From assembly GCA_002722105.1 (NCBI GenBank), contig PBKF01000031.1:18594-44881 (forward strand): a stretch of DNA of 26,288 bases, given 5' to 3'. The first letter of the stretch is position 1; the number at the start of each line of letters is the position of its first letter. Position numbers and translations under genes: made by a program. This stretch comes from Fidelibacterota bacterium (lineage in GTDB: Bacteria; Marinisomatota; Marinisomatia; Marinisomatales; UBA1611). The notes below the pieces were generated by a model. The model was not told the origin of the DNA. It did no database searches and saw only the letters and a list, made by a program, of their open reading frames with translations. Shown piece by piece: positions 3,428 to 21,890 of this stretch.

Positions 3428-3433
3428 TTTGGA

Positions 3434-4140: not shown

Positions 4141-4174
4141 TGTATTTCCGATTAAACTGTTAGAAGTTTCCTGC

Positions 4175-4561: not shown

Positions 4562-4562
4562 A

Positions 4563-4787: not shown

Positions 4788-4815
4788 ATTACAAAATTAC
4801 GGCTATATGAGTACG

Positions 4816-4827: not shown

Positions 4828-4831
4828 ATAT

Positions 4832-5313: not shown

Positions 5314-7065
5314 ATGAATTCCATATTTTTTTCAAAAACAGTCTTATTTGCGGTTGTTTTATTTGGTTTTGGTGGGTGTGCATACTTCAATACATTTTAC
5401 AACGCACAACAATATTTTGAAGAAGCTGAAAAAATACGTCTTCAGAAAGAAGGTGAGTCCATACCGATAACAGCTATGGATAAATACGGTAAAACTATTG
5501 AAAAATGTGAAAAGGTTTTACTGGATTATCCAGAAACAAGATTTAGGACAGAAGTTATCCTGCTAAAGGCAAAAGCACAATTTTATCGTAAAGATTATGA
5601 CCTTGCTATTTCTGATTTGAAAATAGTTACAGATGATGGGAATGAAAAACAAATAGGAGAAGCACAATATTGGCGAGCATTATGTAAATGGAAAAAGGGT
5701 AATTCTCAAACCGGAATTAATGAATTAACAAATTTACTAGAATCTTCAAAATCAGAACAGATTATATCACAATGCCATCTATATCTTGCTGAAATATTTC
5801 AGGAATTAAAAGACTCTGAACGAGCCATGATGCATTTGCAAGAAGGTGCTAAATTAGCTAAAAATAGAGATCAGAAAGGCGTTATCTACGTTCGTTTAGC
5901 GGAAATGGCATTCAATAGAGAAAAATTTGACATTGCAAAAAAAAGCTATGAGAATGTAATTGCTCACTCCTTATCAAAAGAGAAAATTGAAAACGCACAT
6001 CTTCAAATTTTAAAAATACTTAGAAATCAAAAAAATTATCGGTCAGCATCAAGAAAAATAAAAGGAATGCTAACAGATGATAAGTTCAAAAATATAGCAG
6101 GTAATTTAGAATTAGAATTAGTTCAGTTATATCGAGCTCAAGGTGAGGCTGCAGAAATTGAAACCAGATTGCAGTCTATTGTTAACGATTACCAACGTAC
6201 AACTGTATCTGCTGAAGCATATTATATGTTGGGTCAGATTTATACATCAAAAAAATGGGATTTAAATAAAGCAAAGGAATACTTTGATCTTGTAAGTAAA
6301 GAATCGAGTAGGTCACTTTTTGCGCCATTAGCAAAAAGTAGAAGTAAGGCCATTGATATGTATCAGAAAGCACTAACAGATCTTGATATTCATTCAAAAA
6401 TAGAAAGCCATGATACGATTTTACTTGAGCCAGAAAATGATTCTTTAATCGCAGGTGTATCTACAGATTTTCCAGACCGTACAGTAGCAGAACTTTATTA
6501 CCAATTAGCTGATTTAGAAGCATTTAGTTTTAATCGGTATGAACAGGGAATCCAGTTTCTGACTAAAATCATTTCAAACTTTCCTGAATCACCTTATCGA
6601 GTAAAATCCATGTTCACTATGGTTTTTATATATGAGAATATGGGTGATACGCTCAAGGCAATAGACGCAAAAGAAATTATATTAAAGACCTATCCAAATT
6701 CAGAATATGCCGCATATTTGTCTGGTAGCCTAGAAATAGAAGTAAAAGAGCAGGAAAAGCTTTTTGAGAAAGCAGAATCTCAAATAACTGATAATCCAGA
6801 TAATGCGGTACAGCTTTTTAAGGAATTAATTAGAATTGATAAGAAAAGCGATCTGGCAGTTTCGGCAGCCTATACTATTAGCTATCACTATGATCACTCA
6901 GCAAAAATCGATAGTGCCATAAAATATTACAGCTGGATTCAAGAGAATCATCCCAGATCAGACCAATCAATCCAAGCCGAAAAAAGAATGCAAAACTTGC
7001 AGTTAGCAATGAGCATAATTGAAACTGAATCTGACTCTACAGCTATTATTCAGGAAGAAAATTGA
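5314..7065 (+). CDS. TPR lipoprotein, SprE/PorW-like
   Basis: This encodes 583 residues. The N-terminal hydrophobic segment ends in G-F-G-G-C22, a lipoprotein cleavage site, followed by A-Y-F-N-T-F-Y-N-A. That motif begins many FCB-group TPR lipoproteins and resembles the start of the gliding/T9SS lipoprotein SprE/PorW. The remainder is TPR/BamD-like helical hairpins: 'YGKTIEKCEKVLLDYPETRF', a copy near residue 410-440 ('GIQFLTKIISNFPESPYR'), one with 'AIDAKEIILKTYPNSEYA', and a last one ending 'SIQAEKRMQNLQ'. It is probably anchored in the outer-membrane inner leaflet. It is the first gene of the long operon, and its stop overlaps the next start (TTGA). The link to T9SS is inferred; a generic tol-pal/BamD-type TPR lipoprotein is the alternative. 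Confidence 0.7.
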   Translation: MNSIFFSKTVLFAVVLFGFGGCAYFNTFYNAQQYFEEAEKIRLQKEGESIPITAMDKYGKTIEKCEKVLLDYPETRFRTEVILLKAKAQFYRKDYDLAISDLKIVTDDGNEKQIGEAQYWRALCKWKKGNSQTGINELTNLLESSKSEQIISQCHLYLAEIFQELKDSERAMMHLQEGAKLAKNRDQKGVIYVRLAEMAFNREKFDIAKKSYENVIAHSLSKEKIENAHLQILKILRNQKNYRSASRKIKGMLTDDKFKNIAGNLELELVQLYRAQGEAAEIETRLQSIVNDYQRTTVSAEAYYMLGQIYTSKKWDLNKAKEYFDLVSKESSRSLFAPLAKSRSKAIDMYQKALTDLDIHSKIESHDTILLEPENDSLIAGVSTDFPDRTVAELYYQLADLEAFSFNRYEQGIQFLTKIISNFPESPYRVKSMFTMVFIYENMGDTLKAIDAKEIILKTYPNSEYAAYLSGSLEIEVKEQEKLFEKAESQITDNPDNAVQLFKELIRIDKKSDLAVSAAYTISYHYDHSAKIDSAIKYYSWIQENHPRSDQSIQAEKRMQNLQLAMSIIETESDSTAIIQEEN

Positions 7066-8111
7066 GAGCTGGAGTTTTTTCCTTTATATATCGAGCTACT
7101 AGAAGTATTGTCACCAAAATACTCTATTTTTTTCAAGCAATATCTTTTAGATCAAAGGATCTTGAACCAGCCGTCAATTTTGGTGATTCACAATTAGCAG
7201 GCTTTGAAATTTTCAGTAAACTTATTTATGATTTTAAGATTCCATCTGAAAAATCTGTTAAAATATTTGATCTTATATTTCCGTCACCTTTAATAGCTGC
7301 ATCTTTTAAATCCGATCCTGTCATATTAAGGATATGGTTAAAAATGGGACTTGGTGGGATCATGCTAAAAACTATTATGGCAGAGCCAAGACAAGGAAAC
7401 CCAAGGCCAAGACTCCAAGATGCGTCTATTGCCGGTGAAAAAGGTATTTTAAATACTATGGGGTTGCCAGGTGATGGAATTGAAACATTGAAAAATGTAC
7501 TTACTAAATCAGATCTTTGGAATTTTAATCGGCCAATTGGTATAAGCATTGGAGGGGATTCTTTAGCTGAATATATCAAATGTATCAAAACATTCGATTC
7601 AGTATTAAATGACCCAAAGCAAAATTATTTTTATGAATTAAATATAAGTTGTCCAAATACAGAGAATGGCCTGACAATTGCAGAAGAACCAAATAAGCTG
7701 GAAGCGGTCTTAAATGAAGCACGATCTTTATCTTCTTCTCCAATTTCTGTGAAAATATCACCTGATTTATCAGACAGTCAGTTAAGGGCAATTGGTGATA
7801 TTTGTGACTCTGTTAACAGTACCATGATTAATGCTGGGAATACACAATCAAAAAAACCATACCAAGTAGGTGTTAATCCTGATAACTTTTCTATGCCTGC
7901 TGGGGGTTTCTCAGGTCCGGCACTTTTTGACCGTACTCTTGAAATGGTTAAATTATTTTCAGATTTTAAATTTCCAATAATCGCTACAGGTGGTATCTCA
8001 AAATTTGATCATGTGTATAAGTTAAAAGAAGCTGGTGCTTGTCTTTTTGGTATGGCAACTTCTCTTGTTTTGGATCCATACTGTATACCAAAAATCAATT
8101 CAAAAATATAA
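7062..8111 (+). CDS. pyrD: dihydroorotate dehydrogenase family protein
   Basis: This encodes 349 residues from TTG (7062), overlapping the previous stop, with AGGAAG 5 nt upstream. It is an FMN-binding TIM barrel that oxidises dihydroorotate to orotate in pyrimidine synthesis. Visible motifs are 'GGIMLKTI' (98-105), 'EPRQGNPRPRL' (108-118), 'ELNISCPNT' (192-200) with Cys197 in the catalytic-base position, Lys231 in 'VKISPDL', 'GGFSGPAL' (281-288), and 'IATGGISKF' (307-315) for the FMN phosphate. The N-terminal extension (about 45 residues, aromatic and basic) resembles the membrane-associating helices of class 2 enzymes, but class 2 has Ser as base and this has Cys as in class 1. No pyrK is seen beside it. 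The family is certain, the class is not. Confidence 0.85.
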   Translation: MRAGVFSFIYRATRSIVTKILYFFQAISFRSKDLEPAVNFGDSQLAGFEIFSKLIYDFKIPSEKSVKIFDLIFPSPLIAASFKSDPVILRIWLKMGLGGIMLKTIMAEPRQGNPRPRLQDASIAGEKGILNTMGLPGDGIETLKNVLTKSDLWNFNRPIGISIGGDSLAEYIKCIKTFDSVLNDPKQNYFYELNISCPNTENGLTIAEEPNKLEAVLNEARSLSSSPISVKISPDLSDSQLRAIGDICDSVNSTMINAGNTQSKKPYQVGVNPDNFSMPAGGFSGPALFDRTLEMVKLFSDFKFPIIATGGISKFDHVYKLKEAGACLFGMATSLVLDPYCIPKINSKI

Positions 8112-8569: not shown

Positions 8570-9050
8570 TATTCTAATTCTCATATTAATCATTTTAAAA
8601 GGTTGCTACAGCTCCCCAAGGTATGCAACTGGATCAAAGAATACTAAAACTTCTAAAAAGTCAAAGTCTGTCGCTTTATCTAAAACTGTAAAATCAAAAA
8701 AAAATGTAAAGCATAGAAAAGTAATGACAGGAGTAAGTTCTTTTTATGCGGAAGATTTTCATGGTAAACTAACTGCAAATGGTGAAGTCTATGACATGTA
8801 CGGTGTCACAGCTGCCCATAAAACTTTGCCACTTGGCACAGTTTGCCGTGTGACAAATCTTGAAAATAATAGATCCTTAATTTTACGTATAAATGATCGT
8901 GGACCTTATATTAAAGGGCGTATATTAGATTGTTCCTATGGAGCTGCAAAAAAGTTAGATTTCATTAGGCAGGGAACCACAAAAGTAAAAATAGAAGTCA
9001 TGGAGTGGGGTGATGGTGAATACATGCATCACCGAGAGAAACCAAAATGA
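8559..9050 (+). CDS. rlpA: RlpA-like septal ring lipoprotein (lytic transglycosylase family)
   Basis: This encodes 163 residues starting M-R-L-N-I-L-I-L-I-L. The lipobox is L-K-G-C16. A Lys/Ser-rich linker (about 25-55) precedes a double-psi beta-barrel (57-148) with the RlpA pattern: 'GVSSFYAEDFHGKLTANGEVYDM', 'AAHKTLPLGTVCRVTN', 'INDRGPYIKGRILDCS'. RlpA proteins bind or cleave denuded peptidoglycan glycans at division septa. No SPOR domain follows, so this is the short form. The start at 8559 is chosen because it begins right before the signal peptide; the ATG at 8520 would add 13 residues in front of it. It overlaps trmL by 11 bp and its stop overlaps the next start as ATGA. Confidence 0.88.
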   Translation: MRLNILILILIILKGCYSSPRYATGSKNTKTSKKSKSVALSKTVKSKKNVKHRKVMTGVSSFYAEDFHGKLTANGEVYDMYGVTAAHKTLPLGTVCRVTNLENNRSLILRINDRGPYIKGRILDCSYGAAKKLDFIRQGTTKVKIEVMEWGDGEYMHHREKPK

Positions 9051-9934
9051 AGAAATATTACATGGTTGTTAATCCGCATGGCGGATTAAAAAAAGGCATT
9101 GGAATACTTGATCGAGTAAAACCACTTTTTGAAGCAGATGGGGCAGAGTTAACTATTTTGGAGACAGAATATGCTGGGCATGCACGTGATTATGCTCTTG
9201 AAGTAGACTATAATGGTTATGAAGGCTTTTGTGCTATAGGTGGAGATGGTACTATGCATGAAGTTATTAACGGAATGTTGAAACGGTCTGATGAACGACA
9301 ACTTCCTATTGGTTTAGTAACTGGAGGTACAGGAAACTCTTTTATGCATGATCTTAATTGTCTTGAACCTGAAAATGCTGCAAAGCGAATATTAACGGGT
9401 CGAATACGTCCAATTGATATTGCAAAGGTAGATGCAGCAGGCAAAATTATTTACGGCTTTAACATAGTAGGCTGGGGAATGCCTACTGATATAAATTTAT
9501 TAGCAGAAAAGATGCGTTGGATGGGTCAACAGCGATATAATGTTGCATCTATCATTGAAGTTCTAAAAGGAAAACAAAGATTAGCGAAATTAATCATAGA
9601 GGGGAATACAGTAGTGGGAGATTTTGGATTTATATTGGGATGTAATACGATTCATACAGGTAAGGGTATGAAAATGGCTCCATTGGCACAATTGAATGAT
9701 GGATTGATTGATCTTATTATAGCTAGGAAAGCAGGACGAATAAAATTATTAACGTTATTTCCTAAATTGTTTAGTGGTGCGCATGTTGGGGACCCCCTGG
9801 TAGAATATCGCCAAGTAAAAGAATTCTCCATTATACCCCAAGAAGATAATATTTTAAATATTGATGGGGAAATGATAGGAAGCACGCCAATAAATGTTAA
9901 AGTAGAATCCGACTTAATTAATGTATTAGTATAA
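9047..9934 (+). CDS. diacylglycerol kinase-family lipid kinase (YegS/DgkB-like)
   Basis: This encodes 295 residues. It is an ATP-dependent lipid kinase of the DAGK catalytic family, likely phosphorylating diacylglycerol or a related lipid at the inner membrane. Motifs: N9-P-H-G-G for the nucleotide loop, 'GGDGTMHEVINGM' (65-77), 'GGTGNSF' (93-99), and near the C-terminus 'LNIDGE', whose Asp is part of the catalytic/metal site. The length is typical. It overlaps rlpA by 4 bp (ATGA) and lies 15 bp before cdsA, so phosphatidate made here could feed CdsA directly. Substrate (diacylglycerol, sphingosine-like or phosphatidylglycerol) cannot be fixed from sequence. Confidence 0.85.
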   Translation: MKKYYMVVNPHGGLKKGIGILDRVKPLFEADGAELTILETEYAGHARDYALEVDYNGYEGFCAIGGDGTMHEVINGMLKRSDERQLPIGLVTGGTGNSFMHDLNCLEPENAAKRILTGRIRPIDIAKVDAAGKIIYGFNIVGWGMPTDINLLAEKMRWMGQQRYNVASIIEVLKGKQRLAKLIIEGNTVVGDFGFILGCNTIHTGKGMKMAPLAQLNDGLIDLIIARKAGRIKLLTLFPKLFSGAHVGDPLVEYRQVKEFSIIPQEDNILNIDGEMIGSTPINVKVESDLINVLV

Positions 9935-9949: not shown

Positions 9950-10771
9950 ATGGGTATAATGAAAGGAAGAAATCTTGTTAATGTATTAGGAATCCCCGGG
10001 TGGCTATTCCTTATTTGGAAAGGGGATCTTTATTACAGTGTATTCATTTTAATTTGTATTGCATTTGCACTGGGAGAGTTTTACTCCATATTAGAAAAAA
10101 AGGGAGTAAAACCTCTTCGTTGGATGGGTATGTGTGCTGCTGTGTTCATTGCAGATTTTTATTACGTTCAACCTGATGTTTCTCCTCACAATGTTTTAGG
10201 AGTAATGATTTTAATTATCTTAATGACAATTGTATGGGAATTGTTTTCAAACAAAGATAATTCAGCGCTAAATATATCAGCCACCTTAGCAGGAGTTTTA
10301 TTTGTCCCAGTTCTATTAGGCACAGCTATTGATCTTAGACAATTCGATTTTTTGATGGGAACCCAATTGACCTTGGCTATGGTTTTATCTATTTGGGCCT
10401 GTGATTCTGCAGCTTTTATTTTCGGTACAAAATTTGGAAAAACTAAGATTTTTCCAAGAGTCAGCCCGAATAAATCTTGGGTTGGTTCTTTTTCAGGGCT
10501 TATTGCTTCATTAGTCGTATTCTACCTTTTTCACAATCAGAATTGGTTGGGGGATTATTTTTCCCTAAAGGATGCAATGATATTTGGTGTTATTTGTGGT
10601 GTCTTTGGACAAATGGGGGATTTTGCAGAGTCACTTTTAAAGAGAGATGCTAACGTAAAAGATAGTGGTACATTGTTGCAGGGCCATGGTGGAGTTTTAG
10701 ATCGGTTTGACTCCTTGATCTTCGCTGCTCCGGCTACCTATCTTTACGTCCATTTTTTGATACATATATAA
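9950..10771 (+). CDS. cdsA: phosphatidate cytidylyltransferase
   Basis: This encodes 273 residues with about eight membrane segments. CdsA makes CDP-diacylglycerol from phosphatidic acid and CTP, the branch point for phospholipids. The C-terminal signature (residues 220-256) is present: 'GQMGDFAESLLKRDANVKDS', 'GHGGVLDRFDSL', with the metal-binding Asp residues. 'SPNKSWVGSFSG' (172-183) is the other family motif. The start is the first ATG (9950); ATG at 9959 is possible. It follows the lipid kinase by 15 bp and precedes the MutL-like gene by 18 bp. Confidence 0.92.
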   Translation: MGIMKGRNLVNVLGIPGWLFLIWKGDLYYSVFILICIAFALGEFYSILEKKGVKPLRWMGMCAAVFIADFYYVQPDVSPHNVLGVMILIILMTIVWELFSNKDNSALNISATLAGVLFVPVLLGTAIDLRQFDFLMGTQLTLAMVLSIWACDSAAFIFGTKFGKTKIFPRVSPNKSWVGSFSGLIASLVVFYLFHNQNWLGDYFSLKDAMIFGVICGVFGQMGDFAESLLKRDANVKDSGTLLQGHGGVLDRFDSLIFAAPATYLYVHFLIHI

Positions 10772-10789
10772 TCTCTTAAATAAATCCCA

Positions 10790-12598
10790 ATGGAATTAAA
10801 ATCAATATTAGCTACGGATTGTGGCTCAACCACAACCAAAGCCATCCTTATACAGAAAATTGATGGTGAATATTGATTGACACACAGGGGAGAAGCTCCA
10901 ACCACAGTAGAAGCACCTTTCGAAGATGTTACGAGAGGTGTTTTAAATGCTGTAATGGAAGTTGAAGAATTGGCCAATCATAAAATCTTGGATGGAGATT
11001 CAATTATATCCCCAATGAAGAAAGATGAAGGAGTCGATATTTACATATCAACCAGTTCTGCTGGAGGTGGTTTACAAATGATGGTAGCTGGGGTTGTAAA
11101 ATCTATGTCTGGAGAAAGTGCAGAGCGTGCAGCTTTAGGTGCCGGATCTATTGTCATGGATGTGATGGCATCCAATGATGGACGCTTAGCACATGAAAAA
11201 ATCAAAAGGATACGTGATTTACGCCCAGATATGATTTTATTATCCGGAGGGATAGATGGTGGAACCGTTTCACATGTTGTTGAATTAGCAGAAATATTAA
11301 ATGCAGCGAATCCGCAACCTAGATTGGGACAAAATTATAAGTTGCCAGTTATTTATGCCGGTAATAATAAAGCACAAAACCAAATAACTGAAACACTAGG
11401 TGAAATGACAGATCTAGATATCGTGGATAATATTAGACCTGTCCTTGAAAAAGAAAACCTAGAACCTTCACGTGATAAAATCCATGATCTTTTTATGGAG
11501 CATGTTATGCAGCAGGCCCCAGGATATAAAAAATTAATGTCATGGACAGATGCTCCCATTATGCCGACACCAGGCGCCGTTGGGTCTCTTATTGAAATGA
11601 TCGCTGAAGAAGAAAATATATCAGTAGTTGGAGTAGATATTGGTGGAGCAACTACTGATATATTTTCTGTGTTTCAAGGTAAATTTAACCGAACTGTCAG
11701 TGCGAACCTTGGGATGAGTTATTCAATTTGTAATGTTTTAGCTGAATCGGGTTTGGACAATGTATTGAGATGGGTTCCATTTGATATAGATCGTAAAGAA
11801 TTAACAAATCGAATTGGTAATAAAATGATTCGACCTACGACGGTGCCACAATCATTGGAAGAATTATTTATTGAACAAGCTATTGCTCGGGAAGCGTTAC
11901 GTTTATCATTTAAGCAGCATAAAGAATTTGCTGTAGGACTAAAAGGTATCCAGAAAGAGCGAACGATTTCAGACGCGTTCGAACAGTCGTCTTCTGGTGA
12001 ATCTCTAGTAAATATGATGGATTTAGATCTTTTGGTTGGTTCCGGTGGTGTATTAAGCCATGCTCCAAGAAGGGAACAGTCCGCGAAAATGTTAATTGAT
12101 TCCTTCATGCCTGAAGGAATTACACAACTGGCAGTTGATTCAATATTTATGATGCCGCAGCTGGGCGTATTAGCAAATATTGAAAAAGAAGAGCTTGCAG
12201 AAGAAGCTAGAAAAGCTTCTTTAGAAGTTTTTCATAAAGATTGTTTAATACGACTTGGAACATGTATTGCACCTGTAGGTAAAGCAAAAGATGACGATGT
12301 AATTTTAGCTGCTCAATTTGAATTATCAAATGGTCAGAAGGTAAATAAAGAACTCAGGAGTGGTGAATTATTTAGGATCAAAGTTGAATATGAACCGATA
12401 AAAGCTATTTTTGAACCAGAAAAGAAAATTGATGTTGGAGCAGGGCCGGGTGAAACAGTTTCAACAACAGTTTTTGGTGGTGTAGTTGGCATAATTCTTG
12501 ACGGGAGGGATCGACCAATACATATTCCAAATAATTCAGAAATCAGATTAGAAAAATTAAAATCCTGGTCAGAGTCAATAAATGAATACCCTGATTAA
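10790..12598 (+). CDS. MutL/GlmL-family ASKHA protein interrupted by an in-frame TGA
   Basis: Reading from ATG 10790 gives 28 residues with the phosphate-1 loop of the actin/hexokinase/Hsp70 fold ('LATDCGSTTTKAILI'). Next come TGA (10874-10876) and the same frame open for 573 more residues, starting 'LTHRGEAPTTVEAPFEDVTR'. The second lobe has 'VVGVDIGGATTDIFSV' (279-294 full-length numbering) and 'VGSGGVLSHAPRREQ' (about 416-430). This is the glutamate mutase MutL/GlmL family (PF13941 type), but at about 602 residues it is longer than clostridial MutL (about 460), and no mutase S/E genes adjoin. If the TGA terminates, a product restarting at TTG 10877 or later lacks the first phosphate loop. 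The break may be a real mutation, a sequence error or readthrough. Operon neighbours: cdsA (18 bp), lipoyl/KOW protein (20 bp). Confidence 0.8.
10874..10876 (+). other. in-frame TGA (premature stop or recoded codon)
   Basis: The TGA falls between 'DGEY' and 'LTHRGEAPTTVEAP' in a conserved stretch where MutL-family relatives usually have Arg. One base change from CGA (C to T) or AGA (A to T) would create it. The frame is unchanged on both sides. TGA is used as a true stop by other genes here (645, 7065, 9050, 14123). Confidence 0.9.
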
Positions 12599-12618
12599 TT
12601 TACATACTATATCCTAAT

Positions 12619-13746
12619 ATGGCTCATTCATATACACCAGGACTTAAAGTATTACATTATTCAAAAGTTGAAAAAAATAGACGTCTTCCGATTAAGGGTG
12701 ATGTTCTAAAATCTGTTGGTGATTCTTTATCACCTAATGACATTGTTGCTAAAACGGATCTGCCTGGAAATGTTCAAATGGTAAAGATAGCAAATCTTCT
12801 AAATGTTGGCCCAGCTGATGTGCCAGATATGATGTTGATCAATGAAGGAGATAAAATAACAAAGGGGCAAATGATTGCTCAAACTGAAGGAATATTTGGA
12901 TTTTTCAAAACAGATGTTAAATCACCAATCAACGGGACAATTGAATCCATTTCTGATGTTACAGGTCAAGTTGTTCTAAGAGAAGCTCCTATACCTGTTG
13001 AAGTAGATGCTTATATTTCAGGAAGGGTGAAAAATATAATGCCTGGTGAAGGTGTAATTGTTGAATCAGATGCTGCATTTATTCAGGGTATTTTCGGGAT
13101 TGGTGGTGAATCTCGCGGTGAAATGGTAGTACTTGTTTCAGAGAGAAATCAGGAATTGACGGAAAACCTTTTAAACGAGTCACACGAAGGTAAAATAATT
13201 GCGGGAGGGTCTTTTATAAGTCTGGAATCATATAAAAAAGCAATTTCTCTGGGTGTTGCAGGGGTAGTCGTTGGTGGCTTTAATTATTATGACCTTGAAA
13301 ATATACTAGGTTATACACTCGGTGTTGCCATAACCGGATCGGAAGATTTAGTTACATCATTAGTTGTTACAGAAGGTTACGGAAACATTAAAATGAACAA
13401 TCGCACATTTGATTTAATAAAAAACCATGATGGTAAATTTGTTTCCATTAACGGTGCAACACAGATCCGTGCGGGAGTAATTCGTCCGGAGATTGTAATT
13501 CCCTTAACAGATGATGAAATTTCGGATATTTCCAATAAAGCTTCAGAAGAAAAAGGCATTGGTGAAGGGAGCTTGGTTCGTGTAATTCGCGCTCCATACT
13601 TTGGTCAAATGGGTATAGTAAAAGGGTTACCAACAGAACTCCAAAAAATGGAATCGGAAACAATGGTTCGTGTCGCTGAAGTTGAAATTGAGAATGAAAC
13701 TATTATTATACCACGAGCAAACCTTGAAATGGTTGAAGTGGATTAA
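12619..13746 (+). CDS. lipoyl/barrel-sandwich-like protein with C-terminal KOW-like domain
   Basis: This encodes 375 residues with no signal peptide or membrane segment, so it is probably cytosolic. Residues 40-140 look like a lipoyl/RnfC-type barrel-sandwich hybrid: 'LINEGDKITKGQMIAQTEG', then 'VKSPINGTIESIS'. The modified Lys context (M-K-M) of true biotinyl or lipoyl domains is absent. Residues about 180-285 have an alpha/beta Rossmann-like pattern ('GKIIAGGSFISLES', 'VAGVVVGGF'). The last 60 residues read like a KOW/translation-factor beta barrel ('GSLVRVIRAPYFGQMGIVKG', then 'VRVAEVEIENETIIIPRANLE'). It follows the MutL-like gene by 20 bp without a clear Shine-Dalgarno. Function is unknown; with the neighbouring genes it may be a soluble partner of a membrane complex. 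Confidence 0.6.
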   Translation: MAHSYTPGLKVLHYSKVEKNRRLPIKGDVLKSVGDSLSPNDIVAKTDLPGNVQMVKIANLLNVGPADVPDMMLINEGDKITKGQMIAQTEGIFGFFKTDVKSPINGTIESISDVTGQVVLREAPIPVEVDAYISGRVKNIMPGEGVIVESDAAFIQGIFGIGGESRGEMVVLVSERNQELTENLLNESHEGKIIAGGSFISLESYKKAISLGVAGVVVGGFNYYDLENILGYTLGVAITGSEDLVTSLVVTEGYGNIKMNNRTFDLIKNHDGKFVSINGATQIRAGVIRPEIVIPLTDDEISDISNKASEEKGIGEGSLVRVIRAPYFGQMGIVKGLPTELQKMESETMVRVAEVEIENETIIIPRANLEMVEVD

Positions 13747-13769
13747 TCTGTTCAGTAACTTGGGTTGAA

Positions 13770-14123
13770 GTGTTAGATAAAAGTTTAAACGAAACGATCC
13801 TATCAGTAGAATCTACTGAAGATGATTTAATTCCAATCGATAAACAGGATAAATTATTTTTAGAAAGAATCGCAAGAAAAATACATGATTCAGGTTTAGT
13901 CACTCCTGCAGTATTCTTCTTGGAGATGACAAAGCCACTATCACTTTTGGGATCTCATGCTTTAGTATTTTTTGGCCCAGTAATTAATGCGTTTATTCAA
14001 TCAGAGAATTATTATCGCTCTGTCCAAGTTTTTGAAGAAGCTGCTAATATTGAATTTTTATTGCAAATGATTGAGAGTATGGAAAATCAGGTAAATATTG
14101 AAAATACAAAATTACATGAATGA
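13770..14123 (+). CDS. small helical protein of the MutL-DUF6754 cluster
   Basis: This encodes 117 residues from GTG. The central part ('LFLERIARKIHDSGLVTPAV', 'FFLEMTKPLSLLGSHALVFF', 'PVINAFI') has a hydrophobic stretch (about 45-75) that may touch or dip into the membrane. The C-terminus is an acidic helix ('EFLLQMIESMENQ'). I recall similar short proteins beside MutL-like genes in other FCB and related phyla, but that is memory, not a search. It lies 23 bp after the lipoyl/KOW gene, and its stop is overlapped by the next gene (8 bp). The upstream frame is open back to 13746 without a standard start codon, so the true N-terminus could be slightly longer. Confidence 0.6.
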   Translation: MLDKSLNETILSVESTEDDLIPIDKQDKLFLERIARKIHDSGLVTPAVFFLEMTKPLSLLGSHALVFFGPVINAFIQSENYYRSVQVFEEAANIEFLLQMIESMENQVNIENTKLHE

Positions 14124-14979
14124 TCGCGATTTTATGACTGCCGCTGGCGGACTATCCTTAGCATTCTTAATATATTGGTTAATAGGACATCCTTATTTTA
14201 TAACTGGTCGAATTGTGATGTTTTTGGCTATAATGTTATTTTCAGGTACTCTTATATTTTTCACAAGAAAGGCACGTCGTGGGGAAGATATCTTTTTAAG
14301 GACTATTCCAGGGTTAAAAGCAGTAGAAGAAGCAGTTGGTCGTTCTACAGAAATGGGAAAACCTGTGCTATATGTCCCTGGTATTATGGATATGGATCAG
14401 GTAGAAACAGTAGCCGGTGTAATTGTTTTAGGTCATGTATCAAAAATGACAGCTCGTTATGAGACGACGCTTAATGTACCTGTTTCAAGGGCGATTGTAA
14501 TGAAAGCAGCAAGAGAAGCGTGTAAAGAGTCCTATCTAATTGAAGGACGACCAGATATGTTTCATGATGACATGGTTCACTATTTAACCGATGAGCAATT
14601 TGCTTATGCCGCAGGCGTAAATGGAATTATGGTGCGGGAAAAACCTGCTGCATGTCTATATATGGGAAAATTCTATGCTGAATCTCTCATACTGGCAGAA
14701 ACCGGAAACTCCATTGGGGCAATTCAAATAGCTGGTACAGCATCTCAAGCTCAAATACCCTTCTTTGTAACTGCCTGTGATTATACTCTGATCGGTGAAG
14801 AATTTTTTGCAGCCAGTGCTTATTTATCCGGAAGGCCAGAGTTGATTGGTGGAGTAAAAGGTCAGGACATGATTAAAGTTTTCATTATTGGGCTAATTCT
14901 TTTAGGGGTTGTTTTGAGACTTTTCAATGACTTAGGCTTTCTCAACTTCAGTATAATTGACTTATTGACGGTGAAATAA
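14116..14979 (+). CDS. DUF6754-like membrane protein
   Basis: This encodes 287 residues from ATG 14116; the TTG at 14098 would overlap the previous gene more. N-terminal segments about 7-24 and 30-48 span the membrane, and a last one lies near 250-268. The middle 180 residues are soluble alpha/beta: 'PVLYVPGIMDMDQVETVAGV', a Glu/His-rich helix region ('MVHYLTDEQFAYAAGVNGI'), 'ETGNSIGAIQIAGTASQAQI', and 'FVTACDYTLIGEEFFAASAY'. A Gly-rich 'LIGGVKGQDM' leads straight into the final membrane helix. I assign it to the DUF6754 family from memory of its typical company with MutL-like genes. It starts inside the preceding gene and is followed 10 bp later by a polytopic protein. Activity is unknown. 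Confidence 0.6.
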   Translation: MNDRDFMTAAGGLSLAFLIYWLIGHPYFITGRIVMFLAIMLFSGTLIFFTRKARRGEDIFLRTIPGLKAVEEAVGRSTEMGKPVLYVPGIMDMDQVETVAGVIVLGHVSKMTARYETTLNVPVSRAIVMKAAREACKESYLIEGRPDMFHDDMVHYLTDEQFAYAAGVNGIMVREKPAACLYMGKFYAESLILAETGNSIGAIQIAGTASQAQIPFFVTACDYTLIGEEFFAASAYLSGRPELIGGVKGQDMIKVFIIGLILLGVVLRLFNDLGFLNFSIIDLLTVK

Positions 14980-14989
14980 AGGAAAAAAT

Positions 14990-15808
14990 ATGATCTGGAA
15001 AAGACAAATTCCAATCCTAATAGTAGCTGTCATAGGTTCTCTTACATTGTTTGGTTGGTTTATTGATGAGCCCCGTATAAAAACATTTGTAGATGACGAT
15101 GCTACGCAATGGTATGATATTTTGGCCAGTTTTGCAATCTTTCTAGGTGGATTTAATCTACTGAAGCTGCAGCTTCAAAAAGTTTTAAGGAAACAAAAAG
15201 GTTGGCAGTATTCCATATTTGCAATTGGTGGGTTCTTATTTGCTGTAATAGCAGGCTTCTTTTACAAAGGGAATCCAGAGGTGGCTTGGGGTATTCATGT
15301 TACTGCAAAAGGTACACTTTTCAAATGGATCTTTACATATATGTTTGCACCCATGCAGGCAACTATGTTTGCACTTTTGGCATTTTTCGTTGCATCAGCT
15401 TCCTATCGAGCCTTTAGAATAAGAAATTTTGAAGCTACACTACTACTTGTTTCAGGTATTATTATCATGATCGGTCGCGTTCCATTAGGTAGTAATATTT
15501 CCAGTTGGTTTATCATGTATTTGTTGGTTCTCATTCTAGGTATAGCAGTCAATACCATTTATAAAAATAAGCAATTAACTTTTGCTTTTATATTGGGTGG
15601 TTTAGCAATTGTTACGTTCAGTGGAATGAGTATGGGATGGCCTGTGGATCAACCAGGTCTCTTTTATCTTCCATATCTACAAGAATGGATCTATAAATAC
15701 CCAAACGTAGCCGGTGCTAGATCGATTATGATTGGGATTGGACTTGGTATTTTTGCAACATCAATTCGTTATATACTTGGGATTGAAAAGTCCTATATCG
15801 GAGAGTAA
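14990..15808 (+). CDS. polytopic membrane protein of unknown function (about 8 TM)
   Basis: This encodes 272 residues from ATG, with an AAAGGA Shine-Dalgarno a few bases upstream. Hydrophobic segments are visible at about 8-25, 45-62, 74-92, 110-135, 148-164, 168-187, 195-212 and 245-265. Loops contain 'WFIDEPRIKTFVDDDATQWY' after the first helix, an aromatic loop 'FSGMSMGWPVDQPGLFYLPY' before the last helix, and basic loops (V-L-R-K-Q-K) that should face the cytosol. No transporter or enzyme motif is recognised. It is tightly packed with the DUF6754-like gene (10 bp) and the next gene (2 bp), which implies a stoichiometric membrane assembly. Confidence 0.65.
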   Translation: MIWKRQIPILIVAVIGSLTLFGWFIDEPRIKTFVDDDATQWYDILASFAIFLGGFNLLKLQLQKVLRKQKGWQYSIFAIGGFLFAVIAGFFYKGNPEVAWGIHVTAKGTLFKWIFTYMFAPMQATMFALLAFFVASASYRAFRIRNFEATLLLVSGIIIMIGRVPLGSNISSWFIMYLLVLILGIAVNTIYKNKQLTFAFILGGLAIVTFSGMSMGWPVDQPGLFYLPYLQEWIYKYPNVAGARSIMIGIGLGIFATSIRYILGIEKSYIGE

Positions 15809-15810
15809 TT

Positions 15811-16656
15811 ATGAATCTACTAGTTGATTTAATATTAAAACTTGGGAAAGTAGATCGGAGATGGATTTTTGTAATAATAGCCTTAGTAGTGTTACTCCCC
15901 TTGTTCTTTCCTCTTGGACTACCAATCCGGGCAACTGCAACTACGCAACAAGCGTATGATGCTATGGATAAACTTCCTATAGGTTCTAAGGTTTTACTTT
16001 CTTGTGAATACGGGCCTAGTACCAAACCTGAAATTCATCCAATGACATTAGCAGTTTTGCGCCATTTGTTTAGAAACGGCCACAAAGTATATGTTACCTG
16101 CTTATGGCCTGATGGACAATTTCTGGCAGAAGAAGCTTTGGATGAAGTAGGAGGAAAAGAATTCGGGTTAACTTATGGTGAAGATTACGTTTTATTGGGT
16201 TTCCGACCTGGGAATGAAGCAGTTGTGAAAGGCATTGTTAGTGACTTAAGAAAATTATATACTATCGATGCTAGAGGAACCAAGGTAACTGAAATCCCAA
16301 TGATGGAAGGTATCAACCGATTCGAAGACTTTGATTTTCTTTTTTCAGCTTCTGCTGGATATCCCGGAACCATTGAGTGGGTGCAATATGCTGTTGATCC
16401 TACGGATGTACCAATGAGTTCTGGAACAACATCAATTCAGGTCAATGAAGTGATGCCTTATGTTTCTGCAGGTCAGGTACAAGGTATTTTAGCTGGGATG
16501 CCAGGTGCAGCTGAATATGAAGCGTTAATTGGCGTTCCTGGAATTGGTACCAGTGGCATGGATGCACAATCTATTGCACATCTGGTCATTGTTATTTTTA
16601 TCGTTCTTGGAAATATTGGTTATTTCATAGAACGGAAACGATCAAGGAAATATTAA
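15811..16656 (+). CDS. bitopic membrane protein with alpha/beta domain, unknown function
   Basis: This encodes 281 residues. GGAGAG (15800-15805), overlapping the previous stop, lies 5 nt before the ATG, a strong start. One helix at about 18-40 (W-I-F-V-I-I-A-L-V-V-L-L) and one at 256-275 (I-A-H-L-V-I-V-I-F-I-V-L) flank a soluble domain of about 210 residues. That domain alternates strands and helices: 'GSKVLLSCEYGPSTKPEI', 'GHKVYVTCLWPDGQ', 'VLLGFRPGNEAVV', 'FDFLFSASAGYPGTIEW', and 'QGILAGMPGAAEYEAL', resembling a Rossmann-like fold. A Gly-rich 'GVPGIGTSGMDAQS' enters the last helix, similar in placement to the DUF6754-like protein. No family is recognised. Confidence 0.65.
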   Translation: MNLLVDLILKLGKVDRRWIFVIIALVVLLPLFFPLGLPIRATATTQQAYDAMDKLPIGSKVLLSCEYGPSTKPEIHPMTLAVLRHLFRNGHKVYVTCLWPDGQFLAEEALDEVGGKEFGLTYGEDYVLLGFRPGNEAVVKGIVSDLRKLYTIDARGTKVTEIPMMEGINRFEDFDFLFSASAGYPGTIEWVQYAVDPTDVPMSSGTTSIQVNEVMPYVSAGQVQGILAGMPGAAEYEALIGVPGIGTSGMDAQSIAHLVIVIFIVLGNIGYFIERKRSRKY

Positions 16657-16664
16657 GGTGTTGA

Positions 16665-17498
16665 ATGATGATGGGTGAAATATTTGGCGCGTGGATCGCA
16701 GTATTTCTGACTTTAGCGATCTTCTCATTCCTGTATAAGGATAATCCATTTTATAAAACTGCAGAACATATTTTTGTGGGTATTTCTGCGGGCTATTGGA
16801 TGTCGATGTTTTTCTGGACACAAATTCAACCGAATCTTTTCGGTAGACTCTGGCCCGCTACACACTATTCTGATGGGTTCTGGTACGGGATATATGATAT
16901 TCTAGGATTGATTGCTTCTTCCATCTTTCCAGAAGGAGGTATTGATAAAGGGCATGATTTACATTTTAGCTATTTAATTCCCTTTGCTCTTGGAATTATG
17001 ATGCTATTAAGCTTAATCCAAAGATTTAGCTGGTTTGCAAGATGGGGCATAGCATACACCGTTGGGATGGCAGCAGGATTACGTGCATATGGATATTTAA
17101 ATTCAAATGTTTTGGGTCAGGTAAAAGGAACTATTATACCACTAGCTAATTCTGAACTCCCATTATTCAGTCTGCTAGAAGCATCTCATTTTAATAACCT
17201 GATTATATTGGTAGGTGTGGTTACTGGTCTATTATATTTCTTTTTCTCAAAAGAACATACGGGAAATTTTGGAAAAGTAACTCGTGTCGGTATTTATTTC
17301 TTAATGATTTCTTTTGGTGCATCTTTTGGATTTGCTGTGATGGGACGGATTTCACTTTTGATTGGTCGTTTTGTGGAATTAATTACATACTCTAGTTCGC
17401 AGTACCACCACGCGACACTATGGGTTTTAGCTCTTATGGTAATTTTACTAGGATATTCAGCTTTTACAGAAAAAGGGAAACCGGAAGCAGAAGTATAA
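16665..17498 (+). CDS. polytopic membrane protein of unknown function (about 7-8 TM)
   Basis: This encodes up to 277 residues. Three ATGs stand in a row (16665, 16668, 16671) after AAGGTG, so the exact first Met is uncertain by one or two residues. Hydrophobic helices run through 'FGAWIAVFLTLAIFSFLY', 'TAEHIFVGISAGYWMSMFFW', 'LIPFALGIMMLLSLI', 'WGIAYTVGMAAGL', 'NNLIILVGVVTGLLYFFF', 'GIYFLMISFGASFGFAVMG' and 'ATLWVLALMVILLGYSAF'. The helix with E34-H35 and the loop with H-D-L-H-F-S are polar sites worth noting. It is the last gene before the strong terminator at 17540, so it ends the operon. No known family is recognised. Confidence 0.65.
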   Translation: MMMGEIFGAWIAVFLTLAIFSFLYKDNPFYKTAEHIFVGISAGYWMSMFFWTQIQPNLFGRLWPATHYSDGFWYGIYDILGLIASSIFPEGGIDKGHDLHFSYLIPFALGIMMLLSLIQRFSWFARWGIAYTVGMAAGLRAYGYLNSNVLGQVKGTIIPLANSELPLFSLLEASHFNNLIILVGVVTGLLYFFFSKEHTGNFGKVTRVGIYFLMISFGASFGFAVMGRISLLIGRFVELITYSSSQYHHATLWVLALMVILLGYSAFTEKGKPEAEV

Positions 17499-17539: not shown

Positions 17540-17569
17540 AAAAGGCTTGGAATTTTTCAAGCCTTTTTT
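17540..17569 (+). terminator. intrinsic terminator of the long operon
   Basis: AAAAGGCTTG (17540-17549), an 8-nt loop, and CAAGCCTTTT (17558-17567) form a perfect 10-bp stem continuing into a T run to 17569. It starts 42 bp after the last membrane-protein stop. The arms are A-rich on the left and T-rich on the right, so it could work on both strands. Confidence 0.9.
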
Positions 17570-17626: not shown

Positions 17627-19774
17627 ATGAATAAAATTCTTATTTCATTATTATTTTTACTAAATATAATTTTTGGGATTAATCCTCCGAAAAATGGAAA
17701 ATTTCCTGATGGATTCTGGGAAAAAATGGAACAACAGAATATTGGCAAAGAGTACGGTGATCCGGGATGGGTAAAAAAAATATCTAATTATATAAATAAC
17801 TCAAACCGAGACACACAGTTAGAATTTCTGGTACCAGTTCTACTAGGAAAATATGCAGATGTATCGGCAACTTACTTTAATGCATCTGATTATGATCAGT
17901 TATTATTTGGAGAGAATCCAACTGGATCTATGAAGGATTATTATCTTGAAATATCCTACGGAAATTTTCTAGTTGATGGCACAAGCGGCGGATGGTATCA
18001 GTCTACTCTTACCATGTCTCAGGCGGTAGAAAACACAAAACAATACGTTGCAGAAATAGCTGCATTAGCAGATCCAGATTTTGATTATGCGCAATATGAT
18101 AATGATGGCCCCGATAATATTCCAAATTCAGGAGATGACGATGGGTATGTTGACGGCATTCTGATAGTTTATTCAGGATGCGGCGCTGAGTGGGGGCCAG
18201 GGAATAATAATCTTTGGCCTCATATGAGTTCATTAGGTGCTTATGAATATCAAACCAATGATATTGGAGCCAATGGATCGAATATCATTGTAAGTAGCTA
18301 TGCTGTTAACCCTGAACTTGCAGGTGGCGGTGATTGTTATACTGATATTATCAGGCCAATGGGAGTTTATGCTCATGAATTTGGTCATATTTTAGGTTTA
18401 CCAGACCTGTATGACCGTGATTCAAATAATGGAAATTCTGAAGGAGTAGGTGAATGGTGTTTAATGGCCAGTGGTGGCTGGATGGGTTGGGCAGGTGATA
18501 GACCAGCACATATGTCAGCTTGGTGTAAAATACAGTTAGGATGGATTAATCCAACAGTGGTTACAAGTCATGAGAGTAATATGGAAATTCCACAGGTGGA
18601 AACAAGCCCTTTCACTCTGAAAATCTGGGAAGATGATTATCATTTTTCACGATACTTTTTATTAGAAAATCGACAGTCTGTTGGATTTGATGATAATTTA
18701 CATGGTCCTGGTATTATAATGTATCATGTAAATGAAAATAGACGATACGGTCCAGATTATTTTAGCGGCGGATCCTGCAATGATGATGAGACTGATAAAC
18801 TGGTCGATATTGAAGAAGCAGATGGTAATGATGATCTAGATCAAGATATAAATCGAGGTGATGATGGGGACCCTTTCCCAGGTTCATCAGCAAATGCTAC
18901 TTTTGACAATTCTTCTTACCCTTCTTCTTTAAGAAACGATGGTTCAGTAACTGGGATTTCTGTAACAAACATCAGTGAACCAGATTCGGTTATGACTGCT
19001 GATATTATTATGAGACCGCAATACGGTTATGGCATTGCATATGATGAATTAGGTGTATCTTCATTTGGATTTGGAAATTCACAAATGTCAGATAAATGGG
19101 GTGGTGTACTATTTACTGCTGAAGAAGGTGGATTTCTCACTGAAGTGGATTTTGGTGTAAGATATACTGATTCTTATTGGACGGTTTCTGTGTATGAATC
19201 ATTTGACGGTACTTCACCAGACGTATTAATAGACAGTATTACAGGTTATTCTGGAATAGATGACTGGGTCACTGTATTATTTGATTCAATACCAATTGCC
19301 CAAGGAGAAGATTTTTTCGTTGCTGTAAAATACCACAATAAACTCTATCCAGTTTGTTTTGACAGAGCTGGAATACGGTCAAACAGGTCCTATTATTCCA
19401 CTGATGGTGTGTCCTACTCCGATTATATTTCAGATTATGGTGATGTAAATATTAGAGCAAAAATTTCAACTAACGCTTTTGTCCAAATTGATCCAGTTGC
19501 ATCTATTCCTGAAAGAATCGGTCTATTTCCTAATTACCCGAATCCGTTCAATTCCCAAACAACTTTATCCTTTACAATCTCAAAAGAATCTCATGTGAAG
19601 CTTGAAGTCTATGGAGTCAATGGTAATTATATCAATACTTTAATTAATAAAAAAATTAGTAGTGGTCGACATGAATATTTATGGAATGGTTTTGATTATT
19701 CATCAGGAATTTATTTTGTAAAATTTGCAAACGAAACTTTTATTGAAACACAAAAGATCATGTTACTGAAATAA
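17627..19774 (+). CDS. secreted M6-family metalloprotease with T9SS sorting domain
   Basis: This encodes 715 residues with a signal peptide (K-I-L-I-S-L-L-F-L-L-N-I-I-F-G). Residues about 60-330 are the M6/immune-inhibitor-A-like peptidase. It has 'PVLLGKYADVSATYF', 'SMKDYYLEISYGNF', an Asp-rich calcium-loop-like 'DDDGYVDGILIVYSG', and the zinc motif H250-E-F-G-H254-I-L-G-L-P-D260, where H250, H254 and D260 bind zinc and E251 is catalytic. The following 'WCLMASGGWMG' supplies the Met-turn-like segment. Residues about 460-620 are beta-rich. The T9SS sorting domain spans 630-715 (NYPNPFN at 636-642, ending Q-K-I-M-L-L-K). It should be a surface or released protease acting on extracellular protein. 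AAGAG lies upstream of the ATG. Confidence 0.9.
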   Translation: MNKILISLLFLLNIIFGINPPKNGKFPDGFWEKMEQQNIGKEYGDPGWVKKISNYINNSNRDTQLEFLVPVLLGKYADVSATYFNASDYDQLLFGENPTGSMKDYYLEISYGNFLVDGTSGGWYQSTLTMSQAVENTKQYVAEIAALADPDFDYAQYDNDGPDNIPNSGDDDGYVDGILIVYSGCGAEWGPGNNNLWPHMSSLGAYEYQTNDIGANGSNIIVSSYAVNPELAGGGDCYTDIIRPMGVYAHEFGHILGLPDLYDRDSNNGNSEGVGEWCLMASGGWMGWAGDRPAHMSAWCKIQLGWINPTVVTSHESNMEIPQVETSPFTLKIWEDDYHFSRYFLLENRQSVGFDDNLHGPGIIMYHVNENRRYGPDYFSGGSCNDDETDKLVDIEEADGNDDLDQDINRGDDGDPFPGSSANATFDNSSYPSSLRNDGSVTGISVTNISEPDSVMTADIIMRPQYGYGIAYDELGVSSFGFGNSQMSDKWGGVLFTAEEGGFLTEVDFGVRYTDSYWTVSVYESFDGTSPDVLIDSITGYSGIDDWVTVLFDSIPIAQGEDFFVAVKYHNKLYPVCFDRAGIRSNRSYYSTDGVSYSDYISDYGDVNIRAKISTNAFVQIDPVASIPERIGLFPNYPNPFNSQTTLSFTISKESHVKLEVYGVNGNYINTLINKKISSGRHEYLWNGFDYSSGIYFVKFANETFIETQKIMLLK

Positions 19775-19809: not shown

Positions 19810-21879
19810 ATGCCTGAACAGATTCGAAAACTTGCCGCCATTGTATTCACCGATATTGTCGGTTTTACCAAATTTTCTGCAGAAAATGAGCCAGCTGCAT
19901 TGGCTTTATTAGAGAAACAGCGTGAAGTCTTAAAACCGATCGTAGAATTACACCATGGTAGCTGGCTAAAAGAAATGGGGGACGGACTTCTTTTAATCTT
20001 TAATACAAATCTCGAAGCAGTAAACTGCGCCATAGCCATTCAAAATGCAGTTAAAAATATAGATGATTTAAATCTTAGAATAGGTATCCATAATGGTGAA
20101 GTGGTTTTCCAAGGAAATGATGTAGTAGGAGACGATGTAAATATAGCCAGCCGTATTGAACCGTTTTCTGCATCCGGAGGGATAGCCATATCAGATAGGG
20201 TGAATGCTTCACTGGAAAGGGACCCTGGATTTTCCACCTTATATCTGGGTAAACCAGAACTAAAGGGAGTTGGTCAGGAAGTAAAAGTTTACTGCATTAT
20301 ATCCCATGGTCTTCCAGGTACAGATCTTTCACAAGTAGCAGCTAAGTTAGAGCCAGAAGGTTTTCAATGGAATGTTAAAAATTCTATTGGCGTGGTTGCT
20401 TCTGTTATTGGTCTTTTATTTGTAATCAATTTCCTATTCTTACGAATTGGATATGCAGATGAAGAAGAAGTACCATCCATTGCCATTTTACCTTTTGAGA
20501 ATAAGGGCGCAAAAGAAGATGACTTTTATGCTTATGGAATTAGTTCTGATTTGATCACAGATGTGACTGGTGCTGGACTTATCCGTGTTGCTAGTTTAAG
20601 TGATGTCGAAAAATTAGACTATAGGAATATTGAAAATATAGAAATATCTAAAAACCTATTAGTAAGATATGTTGCCAAGGGTACATTATGGAAAATGGAT
20701 TCTATATTTCAACTAACAATGGAGATATTTGACACTAAATCACTAGAGATTATCTTTAATAAACGCTGGCAAAAGGACTGGAAAGATTTAGCGGTAATTA
20801 AAGAAGATTTATCCCGCAATATTTTATCAAAAATTAATGTGGTGATCCTTGGATCTGGTGAAAGTAAACATTACATAAATCCACAAGCATATGAATATTA
20901 TCTGAAAGGAAAATTTCAATTCAGTAATGCTCAAAGTTTTGAAGATGCGGTAGTTGCAAGAGAGCTAATTCAAAAAGCTATCGATATTGATCAGAATTTT
21001 AGTAGAGCAAATTTTATGCTAGGGTATACATATTTGTTTTATGGTGAGTACGAAAAAGCAATGGATATTTTTGAACCATTATCAGAAAAATCAAAAAAAA
21101 TAAATGATAAAAAAATATACGCATCTTGTTTGAATGCTATGGGTATCATTAACTCATATCAATTTCATTCAGATACAGCTTTGATATTTTATGAAAGTTC
21201 ATTGAAGATTAAAAAAGAGATTGGTGACAAGAAAGGGGAAGCTCAGCTATACAATAATATAGGTGCTGTTTATGCCAATAAGTTTGACTATCAAAAAAGT
21301 TTAGATTATATGTTAAAGAATTTAAATATTTATAAAGAATTAGATCATAAATACGGACAAGCTGCAGTTTTGAACAATATTGGTTCAGTATATAATGATT
21401 TAGGTGATTATAAAAGCGGTCTGGAAAGTTGTTTGCGATCTATAGAATTGAAAATAGAATTAGAAAGCCCACCATATGATTTTTTATGGAGTTATTTTAC
21501 AACTTCATTGCTATATGCAGATTTAGAAGATTTTCAAAATGCATATAACATGATGGAAAAATCATTAAAATTACAGAATGATCTCAAATATGAATTTTTA
21601 AAAGATGATTCTATTATTGCATTTGAATATTTTAAAAAGATGTTGGGTCATGAATTCAATATAGAATTGGTTTCAGATTTAATTAAAGAAAAGGAACACA
21701 TAAAGAATACACACAGTTATTTATTATATAAGTTATATGATGATAAAAAGTATTTAGAAATCGCCTATAATACCATTATTGATAAAAGTGCATTATTAGA
21801 AGATGAATTAAAAGTAAAGTATTTAAATTATCCTGAGCAAAAGAAAGTAATTGAAGAATGGCAAAAGGTTCAGTCATAA
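19810..21879 (+). CDS. class III adenylate/guanylate cyclase with TM, TolB-like and TPR domains (paralogue 1)
   Basis: This encodes 689 residues. The cyclase domain (8-165) has the metal Asp residues D15 and D58, adenine-site K54 (K-E-M-G-D) and D104, and transition-state N111 and R115 ('GDDVNIASRIE'), so it should be active and probably makes cAMP. A single helix (193-214) follows; the C-terminal part should lie outside the cytosol. Residues 221-350 match the TolB/FlgO-like domain often joined to cyclases ('SIAILPFENKGA', 'YAYGISSDLI'). Residues about 370-620 are TPRs ('AQLYNNIGAVYANKFDYQKS', 'AAVLNNIGSVYNDLGDYKSG'). It lies 35 bp after the M6 protease and 3 bp before the next paralogue. Confidence 0.88.
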   Translation: MPEQIRKLAAIVFTDIVGFTKFSAENEPAALALLEKQREVLKPIVELHHGSWLKEMGDGLLLIFNTNLEAVNCAIAIQNAVKNIDDLNLRIGIHNGEVVFQGNDVVGDDVNIASRIEPFSASGGIAISDRVNASLERDPGFSTLYLGKPELKGVGQEVKVYCIISHGLPGTDLSQVAAKLEPEGFQWNVKNSIGVVASVIGLLFVINFLFLRIGYADEEEVPSIAILPFENKGAKEDDFYAYGISSDLITDVTGAGLIRVASLSDVEKLDYRNIENIEISKNLLVRYVAKGTLWKMDSIFQLTMEIFDTKSLEIIFNKRWQKDWKDLAVIKEDLSRNILSKINVVILGSGESKHYINPQAYEYYLKGKFQFSNAQSFEDAVVARELIQKAIDIDQNFSRANFMLGYTYLFYGEYEKAMDIFEPLSEKSKKINDKKIYASCLNAMGIINSYQFHSDTALIFYESSLKIKKEIGDKKGEAQLYNNIGAVYANKFDYQKSLDYMLKNLNIYKELDHKYGQAAVLNNIGSVYNDLGDYKSGLESCLRSIELKIELESPPYDFLWSYFTTSLLYADLEDFQNAYNMMEKSLKLQNDLKYEFLKDDSIIAFEYFKKMLGHEFNIELVSDLIKEKEHIKNTHSYLLYKLYDDKKYLEIAYNTIIDKSALLEDELKVKYLNYPEQKKVIEEWQKVQS

Positions 21880-21890
21880 ATTATGCCTGA
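21861..21890 (+). repeat. gene-junction repeat, copy 1
   Basis: The end of cyclase 1 and the start of cyclase 2 (…QKVQS, stop, 3 bp, M-P-E) match positions 24285-24314 at 27 of 30 bases. This is the footprint of a tandem duplication unit. Confidence 0.7.

Follow-up and report, generated by a model that had tools for sequence, protein, structure and literature searches.

The subject of this study is a block of seven closely packed genes in a 26,288-nt stretch of DNA (hereafter the window) from a Fidelibacterota bacterium (contig PBKF01000031.1, positions 18,594 to 44,881). Genes 1 to 7 occupy positions 10790-17498 of the window, in whose numbering all coordinates are given unless another locus is named, lie on the forward strand throughout, and combine a MutL/GlmL-type ASKHA ATPase with a set of membrane proteins. 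Judging from sequence, this is likely an undescribed ASKHA-driven inner-membrane system, new as a gene set. The intergenic gaps of 20, 23, -8 (an overlap), 10, 2 and 8 bp agree with the spacing of at most 23 bp given in an earlier sequence-only reading of the window, which had recognised the gene set and its packing but overlooked an in-frame TGA codon in gene 1.

The proteins encoded by the block

Gene 1 (10790-12598) encodes the ASKHA protein, which carries an extra C-terminal region of about 130 amino acids (aa). With the TGA read as a residue, residues 6-468 of 602 match PF13941 at an E-value of 3.9e-123 and 412 bits (cut-off 27), which makes it a member of this family, while the scores for narrower models fall short of their cut-offs: 222.2 bits against 475 for the GlmL equivalog NF040745, 211.8 against 600 for the ornithine Or-4 model and 157.4 against 204.05 for TIGR01319. 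The motifs D-C-G-S-T-T-T-K, V-D-I-G-G-A-T-T-D and S-G-G-V-L-S-H-A-P, which we take to be the ASKHA nucleotide-binding loops, are invariant or nearly so across 17 aligned sequences (alignment A8). The TGA at 10874-10876 breaks the frame from ATG 10790 just past the first of these loops, which is consequently absent from the listed open frame starting at 10877. Since the MutL matches listed in relatives have no inner stop, and the remainder of gene 1 is constrained like its neighbours, the TGA stems from either a recent nonsense mutation or an error in the assembly.

Gene 1 belongs to the same Pfam family as GlmL but differs from it in length (about 600 aa versus 461-467 aa in two GlmL genes) and in context. 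In two annotated records glmL is flanked by glmS and mutase subunit E, as expected, whereas gene 1 is either fused to gene 2 or trailed by gene 2 and five more genes. MutL-like sequences were found by tblastn at ten places in plasmid records with 26-32% identity, all inside residues 7-483 of a homologue in which genes 1 and 2 are fused (L081); no DUF6754 was found in the plasmids searched.

Gene 2 (12619-13746) encodes a soluble protein with a barrel-sandwich domain of the RnfC_N type (PF13375, 30.5 bits, exceeding the cut-off of 25.6), which it has in common with RnfC and other barrel-sandwich proteins; lipoyl and KOW matches were both sub-threshold in Pfam. Gene 3 (13770-14123) has a GTG start and encodes a small protein with one hydrophobic segment, as judged from hydropathy and alignment A7. 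Gene 4 (14116-14979) encodes a DUF6754 protein (PF20539, E 1.4e-114) with three hydropathy segments; its start is ATG 14116, which fits the closest homologue of 287 aa, with TTG 14098 as an alternative. The predicted fold of the homologue in locus L090 suggests a cytosolic Rossmann-like domain between the membrane segments of gene 4. In some lineages the protein also has a fibronectin-III domain, and the VIA-align matches listed by Foldseek for the L090 model fall on that part.

Gene 5 (14990-15808) encodes a polytopic membrane protein with eight predicted segments and an outside loop that differs in length among lineages. The gene 6 product (15811-16656) has two membrane segments on either side of a domain that, in an AlphaFold2 model with a pLDDT of 93.8, is predicted to be Rossmann-like from fold comparison and to face the outside from its charge distribution; Foldseek returned no clear specific relative for it (best E 1.0e-3). 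Many polar residues are strongly conserved in the alignments of DUF6754 and of gene 6. Gene 7 (16665-17498) encodes a second polytopic protein. The count of about eight transmembrane segments that had been proposed for gene 5 is matched by hydropathy, while the seven to eight proposed for gene 7 are not directly confirmed, as only five segments pass the threshold. The Pfam scan assigned no family to genes 3, 6 and 7 and gave a single sub-threshold match for gene 5, and profile comparison rejected a relationship between genes 4 and 6, which are similar in layout, and between genes 5 and 7. Sequence or profile searches of solved structures with genes 1, 2, 4, 5, 6 and 7 gave nothing significant (best E 0.068), the PHROGs matches of genes 2-7 were too weak to be of use, and neither gene 1 nor gene 4 had a relative in the viral contigs searched. 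The block is followed on the same strand by a stem-loop with a 12-pair stem and a T-rich tail (17540-17567). As a terminator, which is what it had been called, it is plausible from its place and stem length and not from its count, given that four such sites were found and 5.4 are expected from shuffled sequence.

Conservation, co-occurrence and fusion

A scan of species genomes with the DUF6754 alignment yielded 106 stretches, the best 80 of which, from Neomarinimicrobiota, constitute the loci set; DUF6754 is therefore present in every locus by construction. Among the matches listed, the named relatives of gene 4 belong to Candidatus Marinimicrobia. The order of the genes is kept in all 80 loci and the complete set of seven occurs in 63. 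In 16 of the 17 partial loci the missing genes lie past the contig end, the exception being L068, where genes 1-3 are absent despite 3 kb of room. Against loci L001 and L002, non-synonymous divergence per site is 0.08-0.11 in genes 1 and 4-7 and synonymous divergence 0.67-0.80. Gene 2 (0.13-0.14 versus 0.66-0.70) and gene 3 (0.24-0.31 versus 0.60-0.83) are less constrained. The conservation of the block exceeds chance.

Co-occurrence was assessed in 149 genomes of one phylum, a sample of unstated completeness that does not include the window's own genome. MutL is over cut-off in 96 genomes and DUF6754 in 91, all of them inside the 96, so that 91 genomes have both, five have MutL only, none has DUF6754 only and 53 have neither. 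The association is strong (Fisher p ~5e-35, a statistic that ignores relatedness), and the counts of five and zero rule out a plain orphan MutL. Glutamate mutase subunit E (MutE, PF06368) is over cut-off in none of the 149 genomes, with 15 weak matches below it and subunit S not searched alone, which rules out a glutamate mutase encoded just outside the block and upholds the view that the mutase is lacking. Because the genes are conserved together and no MutE is over cut-off in the sample, neither of the two outcomes that had been named as fatal to the sequence-only reading, scattered genes or mutase subunits nearby, was encountered.

Gene fusions strengthen the tie between the ASKHA protein and its partners. 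Of 20 stretches chosen by hand from divergent lineages and added to the 80 loci, four (L081, L082, L083 and L087) encode genes 1 and 2 as a single protein of about 1000 aa. A homologue search with this fusion gave at least 7999 scored candidates; 44 of the best 120 listed, read by eye, span the query almost fully, and the named near-full fusions among those listed come from two Neomarinimicrobiota and one Planctomycetota. Unfused MutL proteins with 77-80% identity to the fusion bear the names of Phycisphaerales, Planctomycetes and others, the name Planctomycetes also appears on gene 6 homologues with 74-77% identity, and a partial protein labelled Deltaproteobacteria ends at its C-terminus with the first residues of gene 2; labels of this kind, Planctomycetota included, derive mostly from metagenome bins. 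In L021, genes 3 and 4 form a single frame. The proposal that the ASKHA protein serves the membrane gene set is thus supported by the presence of MutL in all 91 DUF6754 genomes, by the fusions of genes 1 and 2 and by that of genes 3 and 4. In three genomes (L085/L086, L094/L095 and L097/L098) the block is split, cdsA-1-2 lying apart from 3-4-5-6-7, and the 1-2 half was seen in two further genomes (L096 and L100). UPF0047 lies directly past gene 7 in L085, L095 and L097, which are lineages with the split block.

Genomic neighbours of the block

In the window, the block is preceded on the same strand by a YegS/DgkB-type lipid kinase (9047-9934; PF00781, PF19279) and by cdsA, a member of the CDP-diacylglycerol synthase family (9950-10771; PF01148, E 5.9e-56). 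The first gene past the block, also on the forward strand, encodes an M6 metallopeptidase with a type IX secretion sorting tail (17627-19774; PF05547, PF18962); an M6 peptidase gene lies within 100 bp of gene 7 in six further loci (L006, L007, L020, L021, L028 and L037). Positions 19810-24303 of the window encode two tandem proteins that resemble each other and have a cyclase-like beginning (IVFTDIVGFTK), and in L001 a gene past the block matches Guanylate_cyc and TPR repeats in Pfam.

Neighbours were counted over the 80 loci and the 20 hand-picked stretches after removal of L093, a repeat of L075, leaving 75 loci with room upstream and 78 with room downstream. A neighbour was called direct within 0.3 kb upstream or 0.6 kb downstream, and the labels mostly represent profile matches to one tested gene each. 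The commonest upstream neighbour is cdsA, directly upstream in 54 of 75 loci. In another 15 it is oppC, and 13 of these have cdsA further upstream, before SBP5-oppB-oppC. The lipid kinase gene dgk was found in 32 of 81 sequences (the 80 loci and the window). Downstream genes are varied. Among the 78 loci, oppD comes next in 22, class-III aminotransferase in 10 and UPF0047 in three; aldehyde dehydrogenase and other ATP-binding cassette (ABC) ATPases account for 13 each, the only such ATPase tested, that of L031, being DrrA-like, and other genes for 17. After oppD in L067, a lysine degradation pair lies at positions 14536-17432 of that locus, its two genes scoring above the cut-offs of the models for L-piperidine-6-carboxylate dehydrogenase and L-lysine 6-transaminase. 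Homologues of this pair, the one pair tested, follow the block in other loci.

Many lineages have genes of an Opp/Dpp family-5 peptide ABC importer at the flanks of the block, and in six loci (L061, L062, L067, L076, L090 and L091) the block is nested in the order SBP5-oppB-oppC-block-oppD. Among the matches listed, the linked OppC has 28 close relatives, 24 of which, counted by eye, lie within 1 kb of MutL. A comparison of 84 of the 150 listed oligo_HPY places (from cluster-bearing genomes, many second hits omitted) found this domain linked to the block in at least 21 genomes, 20 of them at 3.4-4.4 kb from DUF6754 and one (G056) at 10.7 kb. In seven genomes oppD lies beside the block and the best OppC elsewhere, in an SBP5-oppB-oppC operon that has no adjacent OppD-like ATPase; one of the seven (G086) has a single oligo_HPY match, which adjoins the block, and the other six have two to four. 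The hint of an envelope or lipid role that had been drawn from the window is therefore borne out only in part: cdsA does precede the block in most loci, but the opp genes, the aldehyde dehydrogenase and class-III aminotransferase genes (23 of 78) and the M6 peptidase genes indicate peptide use as much as a lipid role.

Possible roles of the block

The reading we favour, tentatively and at somewhat less than an even chance, is that genes 1-7 encode one ATP-driven inner-membrane complex that may take part in peptide uptake. Gene fusions, co-occurrence and gene order argue for a single complex, and the neighbouring genes, with the frequent placement of the block inside or beside an Opp-type importer operon, point to peptides; this last link is the least certain step. 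In such a complex the MutL-type protein would bind and hydrolyse ATP and thereby switch the assembly, and the barrel-sandwich protein of gene 2 could couple it to the cytosolic DUF6754 domain of gene 4, which would act as the docking site. Genes 3-7 would form the membrane core driven by gene 1, with genes 5 and 7 providing a path through the membrane, while the gene 6 domain, together with fibronectin-III on gene 4 in some lineages, would face outward and meet the cargo. The block would be distinct from the importer itself, given that no SBP5, BPD permease or oligo_HPY ATPase domain was matched in the seven proteins and the Opp genes are neighbours only.

Several observations weigh against this proposal. 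OppC was not detected (at E 1e-20) in 29 of 96 cluster-bearing genomes and was detected in 27 of 53 cluster-free ones, the two classes used in the OppC and mutase counts; hence neither the block nor OppC needs the other, and an obligatory dependence on Opp is rejected. Overall cdsA is a commoner neighbour than opp. In the window itself gene 1 is interrupted, the genes upstream are cdsA and that of a lipid kinase, and none of the genes next to the block is an opp gene. With SBP5 scores of 147-190 bits, compared with 746 for the linked kind in L108, the seven unlinked operons are distant relatives and no clear orthologues of the linked ones; moreover, six of the seven genomes have more than one oligo_HPY match, and in G002 and G116 a further OppC is accompanied by an oligo_HPY ATPase of its own. 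The downstream genes are mixed and include SIR2, a TonB-dependent receptor, UbiD, UvrB, saccharopine dehydrogenase and a cyclase-TPR protein. Gene 3 stands ahead of gene 1 in six divergent loci (L081, L082, L084, L087, L090 and L091), and Rossmann-like folds are common and by themselves tell no function.

A less probable though serious contender is that the same ATP-driven assembly acts in phospholipid synthesis, lipid flipping or outer-membrane supply, the opp genes being passengers. The prevalence of cdsA, even upstream of most oppC-flanked blocks, and the recurrence of dgk favour this view, as does the retention of the block in the 29 genomes showing no OppC, ten of which are assemblies of only 0.8-1.0 Mb. 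Two weak hints come from gene 4, a sub-threshold match to LNS2_PITM1-3 (13.9 bits, cut-off 27.7) and a Foldseek match of the L090 model to the C-terminal domain of Nir2, which binds phosphatidic acid (E 9.2e-4, TM-score 0.19-0.28). With a root-mean-square deviation of 25 A, Nir2 is no clear fold match, no lipid family is over cut-off in the seven proteins, and cdsA may merely mark the place of insertion; it is because cdsA is the most constant neighbour, together with the two hints, that a lipid role stays in play. Alternatively, the ASKHA protein could serve, like PilM or FtsA, as a scaffold on which the membrane proteins are organised into an assembly platform, and move no substrate. In the platform of type IV pili, PilM is an ASKHA protein that works with PilN and PilO, membrane proteins bearing outward domains, a layout that the block resembles, and outward domains, including fibronectin-III in some lineages, would suit a structural role. 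The conserved nucleotide-binding loops and the polar residues of DUF6754 and gene 6 look rather enzymatic or motor-like, however, and no pilin, secretin or division family was found in 40 neighbouring proteins scanned with Pfam. For the seven proteins, general family scans, no dedicated comparison having been made, reported no PilM or FtsA family. We regard a pure platform as improbable.

The family assignment of gene 1 raises the question of whether it acts as GlmL does on glutamate mutase and restores a B12-dependent enzyme whose gene lies elsewhere, with the membrane genes as unrelated neighbours. Candidate clients are widespread: the methylmalonyl-CoA mutase family is present in 142 of the 149 genomes and B12-binding domains in all 149 (148 over cut-off). 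Yet the former turns up both in cluster-bearing genomes (92 of 96) and in cluster-free ones (50 of 53), so methylmalonyl-CoA mutase-type enzymes do not track the block. Taken with the lack of any MutE over cut-off, the 222 bits against the 475 demanded by the GlmL equivalog and the bond of gene 1 to gene 2, in contrast to the two annotated glmL genes with glmS and subunit E on either side, this makes a reactivase highly improbable. Still harder to sustain is an electron-transfer complex, in which the RnfC-type domain of gene 2 would signal an Rnf- or Nqr-like redox pump. PF13375 is over cut-off, but the barrel-sandwich domain occurs in many unrelated proteins, the full RnfC model (TIGR01945) reaches 19.6 bits against a cut-off of 245.95, and no other Rnf, flavin or iron-sulphur family is over cut-off in the seven proteins. 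The Rnf complex proper is rejected on these grounds.

Regarding novelty, literature searches for DUF6754, PF20539, PF13941, TIGR01319 and IPR006230, and for glutamate mutase with Marinimicrobia, returned no paper, and searches on GlmL/MutL, ASKHA, chaperones and broader topics listed no title with such a cluster; most subscription papers lie outside this coverage. MutL/GlmL proteins are annotated as glutamate mutase helpers, while in the phylum examined a large subfamily is tied to the membrane gene set in genomes without subunit E, so in many bacteria an automatic name such as 'glutamate mutase L' probably misleads. Should the ATP-driven complex that we favour prove correct, ASKHA ATPases would gain an additional role, and we know of no description of them in such a capacity. 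The link to the peptide importer offers a direct experimental handle. A bolder version, which we consider doubtful, is that the block encodes a new primary-active machine of Marinimicrobia and Planctomycetota, in which an ASKHA-fold ATPase, and not an ABC or rotary one, would power an inner-membrane transporter made of seven proteins and bearing Rossmann-like domains on either side of the membrane; it would have evolved nested in a peptide ABC importer operon and be able to stand alone.

Divergent lineages also carry additional parts. In L082 a 6.8 kb insertion (903-7727) between genes 5 and 4 contains an AAA_13 gene together with three further frames; scans of two of these found no family. 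In L092 the DUF6754 protein (10415-11887) is extended at its C-terminus by about 200 aa, and gene 5 (11887-13341) carries an inserted outside region of similar length (about 200 aa), neither with a family over cut-off. A small protein with hydrophobic stretches, as seen by eye, is encoded before gene 3 in several divergent lineages (L090, 5258-5695; L082, 12343-12816; L085, 9644-10084; L095, 7562-8026; L097, 5700-6170). Termed gene 0 here, it matches DUF2207_C weakly in L090, a bacterial PH-domain weakly in L082 and no profile in L085, and it is possible that it represents an eighth component.

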